Shown here piece after piece: positions 1,312 through 6,530 of a DNA stretch of 28,626 nucleotides. Positions within the stretch are counted from its first letter, which is position 1. The number at the start of each line of letters is the position of its first letter. The notes beneath the pieces are model-generated. The model was not told where the DNA came from. It saw only the letters and a program-made list of their open reading frames with translations, and ran no database searches. Location: positions 1 through 28,626 of IMG/VR virus record IMGVR_UViG_3300027741_000210. One strand, given 5' to 3'. A program made the position numbers and the translations under genes. Source of the DNA: a virus.

Positions 1312-3168
1312 CTATACCGTTCTGGTAGAATACATCGACAATCTTGAGAATGTATCTTCTTTACTTCTAACAGGTGGGATAGGTTGTCTTTCTGAACCAC
1401 CTGAAGAAGAAGATGATGAACTTGTATTGTTAATAACAGAAGGTTCTGATGGAGTATTTTCAGCCAACTTCATGTTTTGATTTTCAGATACCTTAGAATT
1501 CAACTCAGCACCTTTATTAGGTGATGGCGCAGGTGCGGCAGAAGGCGATGCTGAAGGTGATGCTGAACCACCACCACTTGAGGCGCCTCCAGGGGTAGGT
1601 TGCGATGACATACTATTACTCATCTGTCTACTCATTTCTTGACCACCAGCGCCCGATATACTTGTACTCATAGATTCTTTGGTCGTTTTCGGTGTAGCAG
1701 TTTCTGCTTTTCTTGCCGCTTGATCAGGATCGGCACCACCTTCAAAGAAGTCAAATAAAGCACCGGCAGCCTTCTTACCAATATACTCACCACCCATAAA
1801 ACCTGCAAGTCCACCTAACAGAGTTCCAACAACAGGAACAACAGAACCAACAGCAGCACCAATAGTTGCACCTCCAGCACCACCTAACGCACCACCTACC
1901 GCTTCAGTAATTCTCTTCTTCATTTCTTTTTCATCAATTGCACCACTTTCATGTTCATCAATTGCATCTTTAACATCCATCAACAATTGCAAACCTGCAG
2001 CAATTAATTGAATGCCAGGTATTCTTTCTAAGAATCCTAACACACTCTTACCCGCTTTTAATAATTTACCACCCATCTTTGATGCGGACTTTGTTACTTT
2101 ACCTCTAAGTGATTTTAATTTTTTACTTCCGCCCATTAAACTTGCAGCATCAGCCAGTGTTCCTAATATTCCACCACCTTCTTCTTTTTCCTTTTCTGCA
2201 CCAACAGCACCTGTACCTATAGATCGGATGGCTTCAATTAATTCTTTATGTTTCTTTTGTTGATCATCTCTTCTTGGTTTTTCAAAATCTTTATCTAATT
2301 CTTTTTGCTTAATATCATCATCTCTAGACTTCTTCATGAGATCATATATGTCAGTCAAGACATTGGTCATGGCTTCATATTCTTTATCCATTCCACCTGA
2401 TATTTTTGATGCGGTTTCTTTTTTATCTTTTGATGGACCTGATGTGAACTTGCCAATATCTTCTTTTGATCTGCCTGTTAATTTACCTAAAACTGTAGGT
2501 GCAATATCGGAATCAAAAGTTAAAAATCTTGCAATATTTAATGGATCAAATACGTCTTTTGCATAACTCTTTGTTTCTTTACCGGCGGTTGATAGAATAT
2601 CTTTAGCAGACATCTTACCATCAGTTTCTTTTAACTTGTCGGTGATTCTCTTTAATAATCCTGGTGATTTTTCAAATGGCGACTTACCATCATCATCTTT
2701 ATCTGCTGCATCTTTCTCGTTTTTCTTTTCAGAATCAAAGTTTGTAGAAACATATTTTGCAACTGCAATTTGAGCAGGATTTAATGTGTCTTGTAATTTT
2801 TTAGGTATAACTCTTCTAGCAGTAGATAAAACACTCTTAAAATTATGAGTATCTTTTTTATTGACAATTTTAGTCAATCTTTCAAGTGCGGATTCAATTT
2901 GCGGTATTTGATCTTGAGAAGGTATCTTCCTGTGTACATTATCAAGTTGTTCATACAACTTAGTAAAGTTTTCTTCAAGATTTTGATCTATATCTTGAAA
3001 GTCTCGTTCCACTCTTGCTTTGTAATCTTCAAACTCTTTTTTAAGATTCTGAAGTTCTTTCTTGGCAGAAAATCTTGTTTTTTTACTAGGTAATCTTTCA
3101 GCAGTGGGTTCTGTAGATACAGATTTCATTGGAATTACTTTAGATTCATTCTCGATATTATTAGGCAT
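1312..3168 (-). CDS. Tape-measure-like tail protein with glycine-rich hydrophobic segment
   Basis: 618 aa. I cannot assign it to a named T4 gene by direct recognition; tape measure or hub protein (T4 gp29 class, 590 aa) is inferred from position and architecture. Visible parts: a charged coiled-coil-like region at about 30-110; a lysine/aspartate-rich middle; a module at about 266-318 (IYDLMKK...HKELIEAIRSIG) that also occurs in the upstream lysozyme protein; a glycine/alanine-rich hydrophobic stretch at about 423-475 (VGGALGG..., GAAVGSVVPVVGTLLGGLAG) that could insert in a membrane or line a channel; and a Ser/Pro/Ala-rich tail with an INNTSSSSSSS run. It is the last gene of the minus-strand tail cluster and overlaps the preceding gene by 8 bases, implying coupled translation. 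It lies two genes after the gp26-like chaperone and its frameshift ORF, the usual place of the tape measure in tail operons. Confidence 0.72.
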   Translation of the reverse strand: MPNNIENESKVIPMKSVSTEPTAERLPSKKTRFSAKKELQNLKKEFEDYKARVERDFQDIDQNLEENFTKLYEQLDNVHRKIPSQDQIPQIESALERLTKIVNKKDTHNFKSVLSTARRVIPKKLQDTLNPAQIAVAKYVSTNFDSEKKNEKDAADKDDDGKSPFEKSPGLLKRITDKLKETDGKMSAKDILSTAGKETKSYAKDVFDPLNIARFLTFDSDIAPTVLGKLTGRSKEDIGKFTSGPSKDKKETASKISGGMDKEYEAMTNVLTDIYDLMKKSRDDDIKQKELDKDFEKPRRDDQQKKHKELIEAIRSIGTGAVGAEKEKEEGGGILGTLADAASLMGGSKKLKSLRGKVTKSASKMGGKLLKAGKSVLGFLERIPGIQLIAAGLQLLMDVKDAIDEHESGAIDEKEMKKRITEAVGGALGGAGGATIGAAVGSVVPVVGTLLGGLAGFMGGEYIGKKAAGALFDFFEGGADPDQAARKAETATPKTTKESMSTSISGAGGQEMSRQMSNSMSSQPTPGGASSGGGSASPSASPSAAPAPSPNKGAELNSKVSENQNMKLAENTPSEPSVINNTSSSSSSSGGSERQPIPPVRSKEDTFSRLSMYSTRTV

Positions 3169-4474
3169 ATGACTTTCTCATATAAGGAGATGCATCTTCC
3201 TTTTTAGGTGAAGATGCAGTAGGTGTATTTCTTTTTGATACTGACTGATTTGTTGTATTATTTACAACAACTGTTGATTGTTTTTGTGCAGTCATGTCAT
3301 CTTTTAAGTTTTTATTTGCATCTGATGCAGGAGTAACTCCGGCAGATTTGGGTGATGACTCTTCAGGTGATGCGGTTGATTTACCATCACCTGCTTGATC
3401 AACCAATGCGACAATTTCTCTTGCTCTATTTCCAACTTGTTGATACCATTTACTATCTTGTAAACCTTTAGCAGCAGAATGAAAGTCACCAGCATCTAGT
3501 GCCTTTGCTGTTGAGGGCCATTTTGGCCACCATTGACCCATATTAAATGCTAGGTCAATAAATGCACCTTTACCTGCTTCATTTGCTTTTTCATATCCAG
3601 GTGTTTTCTCAGCAATCTTAACATGTTTAGCAAAATCTTGTTCAAATAGTTGATTAACTTCATCATCAGATAAAGTTCTATTCCATTCTGGTGGTAAACT
3701 TTTACCATCACCAATCAAATGTCCAACACCAACTGTCCAAAGTCCTAATGAATCTTTATATGGTTTGTTTCTAACACCTTCGTGTCTCATCACCATCGAT
3801 TTTACATCTTTCATTCCAGTGATTGGTGGAAGTTTTACAGATGGTACTTCTCCTTTCGGTGCCGCACCTTTTGGTACTGCTTCTGCCTTTCCCTCTGGTG
3901 CTTTTCCTGATGGTGCCTTTTCCGCTTTACCTTTTTTTGGTGCTGCCTTTTTTGCTCTTGGTGGTTTCTTTGCAGATGGTTTTCTACCTTTAGCACCTTT
4001 TTTCTTAGGTATTTTAGGTTTCTTTGCCGCACTGACCTTTTTTGCAAATTCACTAGGTTCAGGTTTACCAACTTCTTCAAATGCTTCGATCAATTCATCA
4101 TGCATTTTATCAGAAGTTCTTGATTCTTCCTTTCTTTTTGTTTTATCTTCTTCTCTATCCAGAACCTGTTCTTCTCTATTTTTCTCCATTAGTTTGTAGA
4201 TGTAACCAAGAATCTCAGATGCGGATTCTTTATCTGGAACTTTCATAGCAGTATTACTAATTTGATCTGCTTTCTTTTCTGGTTCCATTGGCTCTGGTTT
4301 GAATTGCTTCGATTTCAAAAACTTGGGAAGAGATGGACCTTCAGATTTTTTATATTTATTTTTTGATTCTTTAGAATTCTGTTGTTTTAATTTATCAATT
4401 AAAGACGAAATGATCCCAGTCTGTTGATCTATGATCTTTTCAGTATCTTTTTTTGATGATTTCTTCTTGTCCAT
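3161..4474 (-). CDS. Tail protein with T4-type lysozyme domain (GH24)
   Basis: 437 aa. The lysozyme domain covers about residues 218-360 and cuts peptidoglycan between N-acetylmuramic acid and N-acetylglucosamine. The catalytic triad is intact with T4 lysozyme spacing: E232 (RHEG), D241 (YKDS), T247 (LWTVGVGH), i.e. +9 and +6 as in T4 E11-D20-T26. The downstream 'FIDLAFNMG' and 'GNRAREI' also fit the family. Before it lie a charged N-terminus, a module at about 84-136 (ILGYIYKLMEKNR...HDELIEAFEEVG) shared with the following 618-aa protein, and a Lys/Ala/Pro-rich linker at 140-215. After it comes a polar tail with VVVNNTTNQS. No signal peptide or transmembrane helix is seen. The tail-operon position and shared module argue for a virion-borne, cell-wall-penetrating tail protein rather than a lysis endolysin. 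The gene begins immediately after the TAG stop of the 61-codon ORF. Lysozyme domain certain; tape-measure or hub role inferred. Confidence 0.9.
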   Translation of the reverse strand: MDKKKSSKKDTEKIIDQQTGIISSLIDKLKQQNSKESKNKYKKSEGPSLPKFLKSKQFKPEPMEPEKKADQISNTAMKVPDKESASEILGYIYKLMEKNREEQVLDREEDKTKRKEESRTSDKMHDELIEAFEEVGKPEPSEFAKKVSAAKKPKIPKKKGAKGRKPSAKKPPRAKKAAPKKGKAEKAPSGKAPEGKAEAVPKGAAPKGEVPSVKLPPITGMKDVKSMVMRHEGVRNKPYKDSLGLWTVGVGHLIGDGKSLPPEWNRTLSDDEVNQLFEQDFAKHVKIAEKTPGYEKANEAGKGAFIDLAFNMGQWWPKWPSTAKALDAGDFHSAAKGLQDSKWYQQVGNRAREIVALVDQAGDGKSTASPEESSPKSAGVTPASDANKNLKDDMTAQKQSTVVVNNTTNQSVSKRNTPTASSPKKEDASPYMRKSYA

Positions 4475-4660
4475 CTATCGTTTTCTCTGTCTTTCTGCAA
4501 TCTTTTGATTTTCAGCCTCGATATAAGCAATCAACATAGAAACATAGATATCTCGTTCCCATGGTATCATATTTTCTAACTCCGTCAGATTATACTTGTG
4601 ATGTTGCATCATTGAGAAGTTGGTTTTATAATAATTCTCAAGTGTGTCGTGACGAAGCAT
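4475..4660 (-). CDS. Small tail-assembly ORF, candidate -1 frameshift extension of gp26-like protein
   Basis: 61 codons from an ATG that overlaps the upstream stop as TAATG. The product is charged and probably helical, with a 'MIPWERDIYVSMLIAYIEAE' segment and a basic end (ERQRKR). It lies in the -1 frame of the gp26-like gene. A U UUU UUU run two codons before that gene's stop would join the frames, giving a fusion of about 302 aa in which the last Ile is replaced by Tyr-Leu followed by this whole ORF. The only good SD-like sequence, GGAGGG, is about 22 bases before the ATG. That is too far for normal initiation but well placed to stimulate slippage. A stand-alone protein made by stop-start coupling is the alternative. 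T4 has gene 51 after gene 26, but gp51 is far longer and I see no basis for calling this gp51. Confidence 0.75.
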   Translation of the reverse strand: MLRHDTLENYYKTNFSMMQHHKYNLTELENMIPWERDIYVSMLIAYIEAENQKIAERQRKR

Positions 4661-4687
4661 TAGATAAAAAAACTTTCGAGACCCTCC
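4612..4687 (-). promoter_or_regulatory. Candidate programmed -1 ribosomal frameshift signal
   Basis: Read on the minus strand, the order is: GGAGGG (plus coordinates 4682-4687); a 9-base spacer; seven T residues (4666-4672) phased as AG-T-TTT-TTT, i.e. an X XXY YYZ heptamer; ATC then the TAA stop (4660-4662), which overlaps the ATG of the 61-codon ORF; and about 24 bases after the run a perfect 7-bp inverted repeat, TTGAGAA / TTCTCAA (4612-4618 with 4635-4641). A slip by -1 reads TAT CTA ATG and enters the next ORF without a stop. An SD-like element about 10 bases upstream of a slippery run is the arrangement known from bacterial dnaX. -1 frameshifts between chaperone ORFs just before the tape measure are conserved in many tailed phages (lambda G/GT type). 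The hairpin is further downstream than usual, so its part is uncertain. Confidence 0.6.
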
Positions 4688-5382
4688 ACATCAATCTCAT
4701 GATGAAATCCACATTTTCTACAATCTATATCAATTACTTTTCTTAGTTTTGGTAGTGCTGAAAAGAATGCCTCAATCTTTTCAAATTGAGCCTGACTTAA
4801 CTGTTCGACAAACTCAACAGTCTCTTGTATTGGTACTTCTTTAGTATAATAATACTGTTCACCATCATAGATATACTCAATAGATTTAGCAATCATATTG
4901 AAAGTTAATTCATTCACATCATCAAACTTTAAAGAATCTTTAATGTAGGAGAAGTCTGGATACTTTAACTTCACACTAATTGTATCTGTGAGTTGAACAA
5001 TAGGATCAACCAAATCTTTATTTTCAACTTGTATTTCTAAAAGATTAACATCTTTTTCCATAATGTTATTGCACTTTTTACCTTCAACGACATTATTGCA
5101 TCTATATCTTGTTTCAACAATCTCGCCTACTGATCTCGCACGAAGATTCATAAAGTAATATTCAACATCAACAATAGGTAAACTTTCAATATCAACATTA
5201 GGTGTAATAGTACAATTATTCAAAATATCTCGAACACTCTTTTGAATTGTTTCAGATTCCTGTGATTCTACTGCCATCAAAAGATTTCTTTGTTCTTTGA
5301 CAACAAAAGGTCGAAACTCTATTGTTGTTTTAGATAATGGTAACTGCAATCTATAAGTTGGTGCGTCAAGTTTTGGTAACAT
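4660..5382 (-). CDS. 26: gp26-like baseplate hub / tail assembly chaperone
   Basis: 240 aa, resembling the T4 baseplate protein family of gp26 (T4 gp26 is 208 aa). The family is thought to act in hub and tail-tube assembly and is a candidate tape-measure chaperone. Visible: an N-terminal 'LPLSKTTIEFRPFVVKEQRNLL' type segment (shown only in part here), which is characteristic; four cysteines in two groups, C95/C104 (RYRC...KKC) and C221/C224 (DCRKCGF), which could bind zinc; and an acidic GLESFFI end. The ATG is preceded by a good SD (GAGGAG). It sits between the tube-family gene and the lysozyme/tape-measure pair. Its last codons form the candidate slippery site, so two products, of 240 and about 302 aa, are possible. 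Family membership is judged from sequence character and gene order, not a database hit. Confidence 0.8.
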   Translation of the reverse strand: MLPKLDAPTYRLQLPLSKTTIEFRPFVVKEQRNLLMAVESQESETIQKSVRDILNNCTITPNVDIESLPIVDVEYYFMNLRARSVGEIVETRYRCNNVVEGKKCNNIMEKDVNLLEIQVENKDLVDPIVQLTDTISVKLKYPDFSYIKDSLKFDDVNELTFNMIAKSIEYIYDGEQYYYTKEVPIQETVEFVEQLSQAQFEKIEAFFSALPKLRKVIDIDCRKCGFHHEIDVEGLESFFI

Positions 5383-5403: not shown

Positions 5404-5922
5404 TTATATGGGTACTGATTCCCAATAAGTATAAGCAAATGTAACGGTTAGTTTATGAACAGAATCTGAACTCCAGTCTAAATCAAGTTGATTCATGTTG
5501 ATAGGAAAGGCACGGTGCATTGTAGCTTGATATGATAATTCTCCCATAACATCATATTGTAAAACATCAATATCAACAGCATAATCATCTTTATATTTGA
5601 AGTTGAAATTTTTTGATGGATTAATTACTTCCATCCATTGATCAAATGTATTTTTAATCAACATTGTATCATCAACAATAAATGTCAAATCAATATCATT
5701 ATAGTTTGACCAATATGGAAACTTTTCAACAGGTCCATAAGTTTTTTGTTCAACTGTTGAGAAATTTCTACCTGGTAATTGTGCAATTTCACATCGTTTG
5801 ATTAAATCAAAAGGTCCAGCAACAACACCAACAGGAGTTGATCCAAATCTTAATTCGAATCTACTTGCTCGTGCTGGATCTTTATTAAAACTTGATAAAA
5901 ATTCTGATATACTTCCTGCCAT
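5404..5922 (-). CDS. 54: gp19-family tube protein, probably gp54-type tube initiator
   Basis: 172 aa, in the T4 gp19 tail-tube fold family, to which the baseplate tube-initiator gp54 is related. Family marks: 'RFELRFG' at the first strand; 'LPGRN' and 'EKFPYW...DIDLTFIVDDTM' in the middle; a 'FDQWMEVINPSKNFNFKYKDDY' type helix and loop (in part); then 'AFPINMNQLDLDW' and 'LTVTFAYTYWE', which match the T4 gp19 ending 'LALDYWE'. Two placements are possible: the main tube protein gp19, or gp54. The baseplate setting (gp26, gp4 and gp48 neighbours, no gp18 sheath gene nearby) and a start resembling the gp54 N-terminus favour gp54. T4 gp54 is about 320 aa, so this would be a form without the long extension. 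The SD is AGGA before the ATG. Confidence 0.7.
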   Translation of the reverse strand: MAGSISEFLSSFNKDPARASRFELRFGSTPVGVVAGPFDLIKRCEIAQLPGRNFSTVEQKTYGPVEKFPYWSNYNDIDLTFIVDDTMLIKNTFDQWMEVINPSKNFNFKYKDDYAVDIDVLQYDVMGELSYQATMHRAFPINMNQLDLDWSSDSVHKLTVTFAYTYWESVPI

Positions 5923-5930
5923 ATTTTATC

Positions 5931-6530
5931 CTATGGTGTCTGTTTAATTTGGTCAACTGAATCTTGCCATACAGTCTTTGCTTTTGCTTTTCTGAACTGA
6001 TGAACGGGTAACATTGCTGCCACATCCCACTCATTTGGTTTTACAATCAATATCTTAGAACGCAAATGTGAGTATAGATATCGTTTCAAGCAAGGTTCAA
6101 ATGCTTTAAATCTTCTAGCTTCACTTAGTAATTCGTATGTCACACGCATTCTTTTAATATCATCATTATCATCTAGTAACGCCAACGGCATCAGTTTTTC
6201 TAAAAACTTAATTCTATAGGGTATTGGTAAATAATGTAGGTTTAATCCTAGAAAACCATCACTGTATTTCTCTAACATAATCACCAAAGGAAAAGTATCA
6301 TAGTACGGCAAACTGCCTTTAGTCTTTGGATCATAATAAAAGAAATACATCTTACCTAATGTAATTCTTCTGGTGTATCGGTCTATCTCTGCACCAATCG
6401 TAGGTGCAATTCGATACACGTTTCTCAGTTCATCGATTTTATCCTGTAACCAAACTAATGCCTTTTTGGACATAGTTTGTAGTTTCAGTGATGATTTTTC
6501 TTCAGCAAGTTGTGTTAGTTTTGATGTCAT
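5931..6530 (-). CDS. Unidentified conserved-looking tail/head-region protein
   Basis: 199 aa, not assigned. It is basic and aromatic-rich, with 'LGKMYFFYYDPKTKGSLPYY', 'FPLVIMLEKY' and 'GFLGLNLHYLPIPYR' motifs and a C-terminal 'KPNEWDVAAMLPVHQFRKA'. The run of Tyr, Phe and Pro-Tyr motifs and the lack of hydrophobic segments suggest a compact soluble structural or DNA-end protein. It lies 8 bases after gp4 and 8 bases before the gp54-like gene on the same strand, so it is almost surely co-expressed with head-to-tail joining and tube-initiation proteins. In T4, gene 4 neighbours genes 2 and 3 (DNA-end protection and tail completion). A distant gp2- or gp3-type role is possible but is only an inference from position. 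Confidence 0.75.
   Translation of the reverse strand: MTSKLTQLAEEKSSLKLQTMSKKALVWLQDKIDELRNVYRIAPTIGAEIDRYTRRITLGKMYFFYYDPKTKGSLPYYDTFPLVIMLEKYSDGFLGLNLHYLPIPYRIKFLEKLMPLALLDDNDDIKRMRVTYELLSEARRFKAFEPCLKRYLYSHLRSKILIVKPNEWDVAAMLPVHQFRKAKAKTVWQDSVDQIKQTP

Follow-up and report, generated by a model that had tools for sequence, protein, structure and literature searches.

The tail gene cluster of a single virus record of 28,626 bases (analysed at its full length and referred to as the window; the record has no further contigs) raises the question of how a 61-codon open reading frame that overlaps the end of a gene for a T4 gp26-like protein is expressed. All genes of this cluster are encoded on the minus strand:

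5931-6530, minus strand: DNA end protector
5404-5922, minus strand: tail-tube-like protein
4660-5382, minus strand: gp26-like gene, 240 aa, the short product (TAC-N-like; PF12322, phrog_150)
4475-4660, minus strand: 61-codon ORF (matches to phrog_634 and phrog_150)
3161-4474, minus strand: the next gene, for a 437-aa protein with a phage lysozyme domain (PF00959, E 3.7e-14)
1312-3168, minus strand: 618-aa protein, candidate tape-measure protein on the basis of weak family matches and gene order

The 240-aa product belongs to the T4_baseplate family (PF12322, E 1.1e-56) and to a baseplate hub family (phrog_150, E 2.5e-59). The 61-aa ORF matches phrog_634, a 'baseplate hub assembly catalyst' (E 3e-29, positions 59-118 of 121), and also positions 236-276 of phrog_150. 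The 618-aa protein, whose gene lies two genes downstream of the gp26-like gene with only the lysozyme-domain gene between them, is a candidate for the tape-measure protein: it has a charged, probably helical N-terminus and a hydrophobic stretch with a glycine zipper, and it weakly matches tail lysin and tape-measure families. In HTVC008M a 'putative tail tape measure' is annotated at a similar position in the gene order; BLASTP of the 618-aa protein against this annotated protein gave no significant match. At 829-1263 on the plus strand there is also a 144-aa ORF that we take to resemble a rubrerythrin-type ferritin-like protein, an unusual neighbor for phage tail genes.

The gp26-like gene ends, on the minus strand, with GAG GGT CTC GAA AGT TTT TTT ATC TAA TG. 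The following elements can be distinguished at and beyond this junction:

4682-4687, minus strand: GGAGGG, complementary to the anti-Shine-Dalgarno (SD) sequence, candidate 5' stimulator 9 nt before the heptamer
4666-4672, minus strand: slippery heptamer T_TTT_TTT within the codons AGT TTT TTT, in conserved phase
4660-4662, minus strand: zero-frame stop TAA, one codon (ATC) after the heptamer, closing the 240-aa product
4658-4660, minus strand: ATG overlapping the gp26-like stop (TAATG), at which the 61-aa ORF might start by itself; not conserved
4475-4672, minus strand: -1-frame extension from heptamer to stop, 65 codons (FFYLMLRHD...RQRKR), supported by homology and open in relatives
4612-4641, minus strand: perfect 7-bp inverted repeat TTGAGAA/TTCTCAA, starting 24 nt past the heptamer

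The spacer between GGAGGG and TTTTTTT is nine bases (TCTCGAAAG), and the -1 frame runs from the heptamer (FFYLMLRHDT...) without a stop to position 4478; fusion of the gp26-like protein to this tail gives 302 aa, of which 62 residues are added. A preliminary description of this DNA had pointed out the GGAGGG, the nine bases, the phased T-TTT-TTT, the single codon before the stop and the open -1 frame, and every one of these elements was found where it had been placed. In-frame heptamers of the form X_XXY_YYZ are present at 41 of the 9,061 codon pairs in the genes of the window, T_TTT_TTY at only three, and the heptamer at 4666-4672 is the sole place where a -1 shift connects two ORFs of phage families.

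Judging from the sequence comparisons below, it is very probable that ribosomes undergo a programmed -1 frameshift at U_UUU_UUU, shortly before the gp26-like gene ends. Phenylalanyl tRNAs in the P and A sites would slip one base back, UUU UUU re-pairing perfectly, and the slip would be aided by pairing of GGAGGG with 16S rRNA 9 nt upstream. Most ribosomes would terminate one codon later to yield the 240-aa short form, and a minority would read on through the 62 additional residues to yield the 302-aa long form; together, the short and long forms would, like gpG and gpGT of lambda, cover the tape-measure protein and bring in subunits of the tail tube.

Conservation of the heptamer and of the -1 frame

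In a first set of 62 relatives drawn from IMG/VR, with protein identities of 42-100%, every junction reads xxT TTT TT(T/C), one further codon and then the stop. The comparison was extended to 244 junctions, comprising the IMG/VR relatives, loci obtained with cyanophage queries, and named phages. The pattern that the preliminary description had named as evidence against a frameshift, relatives lacking the T-run or carrying the second ORF in other frames, was looked for among them and did not emerge; an in-frame heptamer was found at 240 of the 244 junctions (223 TTTTTTC, 16 TTTTTTT and 1 TTTTTTG), nearly always three codons ahead of the zero-frame stop. The phages that have it include members of Kyanoviridae, Emdodecavirus, Pootjesviridae, Schizotequatrovirus and Angelvirus, as well as pf16 and Moby. 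With so few T_TTT_TTY heptamers in the window, two ORFs joined at this one and such consistency among relatives, the site is more than a chance occurrence.

The four junctions without it belong to three Ackermannviridae-type phages and to a single contig. The former (Vibrio D504, Det7 and VP-1; L236, L239 and L242) keep the overlapping -1 frame but have CTT TTC, ATT TTC or GTT TTT in place of the heptamer, and likely use a different slip site. In the contig (L163:1870-1910), the end of the gp26 gene including the heptamer is apparently deleted and the tail ORF is joined to it directly, by either an assembly error or a true deletion.

Constraint on the nucleotides of the site was evaluated with 106 clusters at 80% identity, and again with 25 clusters at 60% identity. 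The codon ahead of the first phenylalanine is AGT, TCT, GCT, GAT, AAT or GGT, specifying five amino acids with a third base that is always T. This third-base T precedes the heptamer in 106 of 106 clusters (61 expected from codon usage) and the first phenylalanine codon is TTT in all 106 (73 expected), while the 25 clusters give a probability of about 10^-4 for each of the two features (log10 P -4.1 for the third-base T), all of these statistics ignoring shared ancestry and so overstating the surprise. Because the amino acid varies and yet the T is retained, selection on the protein hardly explains the xxT pattern.

The -1 frame itself behaves as coding sequence. All 237 complete -1 tails are open, with lengths of 58-68 aa, and in 61 of the 62 first relatives the frame stays open for 179-194 nt beyond the zero-frame stop (it closes at 134 nt in the remaining one). 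A +1 shift was rejected as an alternative: the +1 frame is shut no more than 22 nt past the stop in the same 62 relatives. In the clade of the window (22 clusters), from the heptamer to the inner methionine, codon differences of a single base leave the amino acid unchanged in 70% of cases in the -1 frame versus 20% in each other frame, and entropy peaks at the third positions of -1-frame codons (0.47, 0.32 and 1.03 for the first, second and third positions). This pattern of substitution indicates purifying selection on the tail of the window clade in the -1 frame. The proposal that a -1 shift gives rise to 240-aa and 302-aa forms, which originated with the preliminary description, is thus strongly supported by comparison, through the heptamer, its phase, and an open -1 frame under selection.

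Candidate stimulators and alternative modes of expression

GGAGG or GAGG is present 10 nt before the heptamer in 72 of the 106 clusters, and the SD-like element stands 9 nt from the heptamer in the window, and at 9-10 nt in the majority of relatives, within the 9-14 nt upstream that a 2016 review gives for stimulation of -1 frameshifting by SD sequences. Its predicted pairing with the 16S rRNA tail averages -7.7 kcal/mol, compared with -5.5 kcal/mol for synonymous recodings and -2.2 kcal/mol elsewhere in the gene, and is stronger than the synonymous null by a Wilcoxon test that ignores phylogeny (p 1e-14). The SD-like element that had been claimed upstream of the heptamer is real, suitably spaced and stronger than synonymous recoding would give, and GGAGGG is a candidate 5' stimulator of the shift.

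The 7-bp hairpin, which had been put forward as a further element of the shift, is present in the window but not conserved. Across the window clade, 65% of cells are paired, no more than in shuffled or slid controls. The z-score is -1.6, the clade alignment contains no covariation in this hairpin, and neither RNAalifold nor fold_alignment predicts a consensus RNA structure. It was rejected as a 3' stimulator in this clade, and the inverted repeat is probably incidental.

A different stem is found in the P-SSM2-like clade, where 11 covarying base pairs begin 5 nt after the heptamer (L065:2986-3035, alignment A3). Pairing is possible in 90% of cells, versus 26-44% when the stem is slid; at two pairs both partners have changed, and one of these pairs varies among four standard types. 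The fold of P-SSM2 itself has z = -3.1, and the annotated start codon of its gp51 lies within the stem. RNAalifold predicts no consensus for this clade, the support for the stem coming from pair counting on the named stem.

It is improbable that the two ORFs are separate genes and that the 61-aa ORF is translated by termination-reinitiation at TAATG, with no frameshift. Database records do annotate two coding sequences, and an ATG occurs 4-10 codons into the -1 frame in roughly two of every three clusters, chiefly P-SSM2-like ones, but in the P-SSM2-like clade this ATG is buried in the stable hairpin. The TAATG overlap is present in the window and in L001, L002 and L004, and in no others of the 62 relatives compared; an independent start there was rejected, the ATG not being conserved beyond the nearest relatives. 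Most members of the window clade reach an in-frame ATG only 20-21 codons into the tail, although the preceding stretch is conserved as -1-frame protein, so a start at this inner methionine would leave a conserved stretch unread. Furthermore, the gap of 21 nt between GGAGGG and the ATG exceeds the normal spacing for a start, whereas the gap to the heptamer fits a stimulator, and reinitiation leaves the xxT constraint unexplained.

Slippage could instead take place during transcription, with RNA polymerase gaining or losing a U on the T-run so that the second frame is then read normally. The homopolymer is of seven T in the window and of eight in HTVC008M and Melnitz-1, but the usual run (223 of 244) is just six T followed by C, shorter than the runs of about nine discussed for transcriptional slippage in the review, and the strict codon phase and the ribosomal spacing of the SD-like element suit translation better, which makes this explanation very unlikely. 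Almost no credence can be given to the idea that the T-run is a by-product of a Gly-Leu-x-x-Phe-Phe protein motif and that the frame of the second ORF is accidental. Phe-Phe is indeed conserved in the short protein, including T4 gp26, but the motif demands neither a preceding third-base T nor TTT as the first phenylalanine codon, and it requires no stop one codon later and no -1 frame that is open and under selection in all relatives. Programmed -1 frameshifting by the ribosome remains the favored explanation.

Relation to T4 gp26 and gp51 and to known frameshifting systems

Phage T4 encodes gp26 (208 aa) and gp51 (249 aa), both members of PF12322, on opposite strands. T4 gp51 matches phrog_150 through position 280, tail included, and the alignment of -1 tails matches the alignment of T4-type gp51 C-termini (hhalign, 95.9% probability, E 5e-9), which indicates that the -1 tail and the C-terminal part of T4 gp51 are homologous. 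T4 gp26 ends with GLKEFFELL, which aligns with GLESFF at the shift site, and by their sequences the short gp26 and the long gp51 of T4 are paralogs. From the homology of the gp51 tail and the ending of gp26 at the shift site, it follows that T4 has two genes where the window phage would have one gene with a shift. The window locus thus resembles T4 in that both have PF12322 proteins and gp51 bears a tail homologous to the 61-aa ORF, and differs in that T4 has no need of a frameshift, its genes being separate and on opposite strands. In a review of T4, gp26 and gp51 are counted among the chaperones of hub assembly, and the two forms predicted for the window phage are likely to be short and long tail assembly chaperones equivalent to them.

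The AlphaFold model of the short form is a confident one (mean pLDDT 89.6), and its best matches among predicted viral structures are members of its own family, which are baseplate hub proteins. No match of this model in the PDB was significant by Foldseek; of the matches listed, the HK97 chaperone 2ob9 had the highest probability (0.51, E 1.6), a similarity of the modeled gp26-like protein that is only suggestive. A model of the long form, for which a T4-type in-frame gp51 was folded, had no match in the PDB, and no solved structure turned up when one was sought for the family.

In phage lambda, short and long chaperones, gpG and gpGT, are made by -1 frameshifting. The window locus would likewise combine a -1 shift shortly before the first gene ends with two chaperone lengths, and it lies upstream of a candidate tape-measure gene; its overlapping frames encode the short and long forms as in the lambda G/GT and HK97 gp14 chaperones. 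It differs from lambda in its slippery site and its protein family, and no sequence match to gpG/gpGT was found here. With E. coli dnaX it shares an SD-like element some 10 nt ahead of the slippery site, here a candidate stimulator, and P-SSM2-like phages also have a 3' stem (of 11 bp), but the dnaX site is A_AAA_AAG in an unrelated gene, and the window clade has no conserved 3' stem. The tail assembly chaperone gene of phage Adele (Vandenendeviridae/Andersonviridae) lies upstream of the tape measure and has a conserved -1 frame and the poly-T motif GTTTTT (PMC12846349); the -1 frame and poly-T are alike, whereas the phage families are others and the motif is GTTTTT rather than T_TTT_TTY.

The 2016 review described G-T frameshifting as widespread and conserved among phages with long tails, 'except T4'. 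The preliminary description supposed that a frameshift in this family might be undescribed, a supposition that later papers contradict. A passage of PMC12846349 credits Vladimirov et al. 2022 (PMID 34826709) with poly-T -1 signals in the TAC-N genes of T4-like phages, the summary of the same work in PRFect (PMC10885494) mentions that some T4-like phages encode the short and the long form separately, and the title of Vladimirov, Gautam and Davidson 2022 (PMID 34826709) stresses a non-frameshift mechanism. As those passages present them, the T4-like chaperones of Vladimirov et al. 2022 have the same short and long forms, the window phage being of the frameshift type; since the citing papers credit that work with T4-like poly-T signals, this kind of finding is already known. 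New here are the breadth of conservation, the SD-like element 9-10 nt upstream and the 11-bp covarying hairpin of P-SSM2-like phages.

We somewhat favor the view that T4-like phages make one and the same chaperone pair by interchangeable means: by an SD-aided frameshift at U_UUU_UUY, by such a frameshift plus a hairpin that buries the annotated gp51 start, or from two paralogous genes. The window clade would then exemplify the SD-like element alone, P-SSM2-like phages the SD-like element with the hairpin, and T4 the two genes, each of which would have fixed one of the two products; the frameshift may be ancestral and the duplication derived. The frameshift arrangement persists within Straboviridae, in Schizotequatrovirus, Angelvirus and Citrobacter phage Ci1, near phages that have two genes in its place; phi-Grn1, AsFcp_4 and Ci1 (L238, L240 and L241) have it, unlike T4 of the same family.

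The 'gp51' of cyanophages and pelagiphages would accordingly be the end of a longer chaperone, which would explain a tiny gene with an odd start and its absence from some annotations. In every named record of the frameshift type that was inspected, the tail is either annotated as a separate gene or omitted. The record of S-WAM1 (L228), for example, leaves the tail ORF at 2486-2689 unannotated, and the long form was missed.
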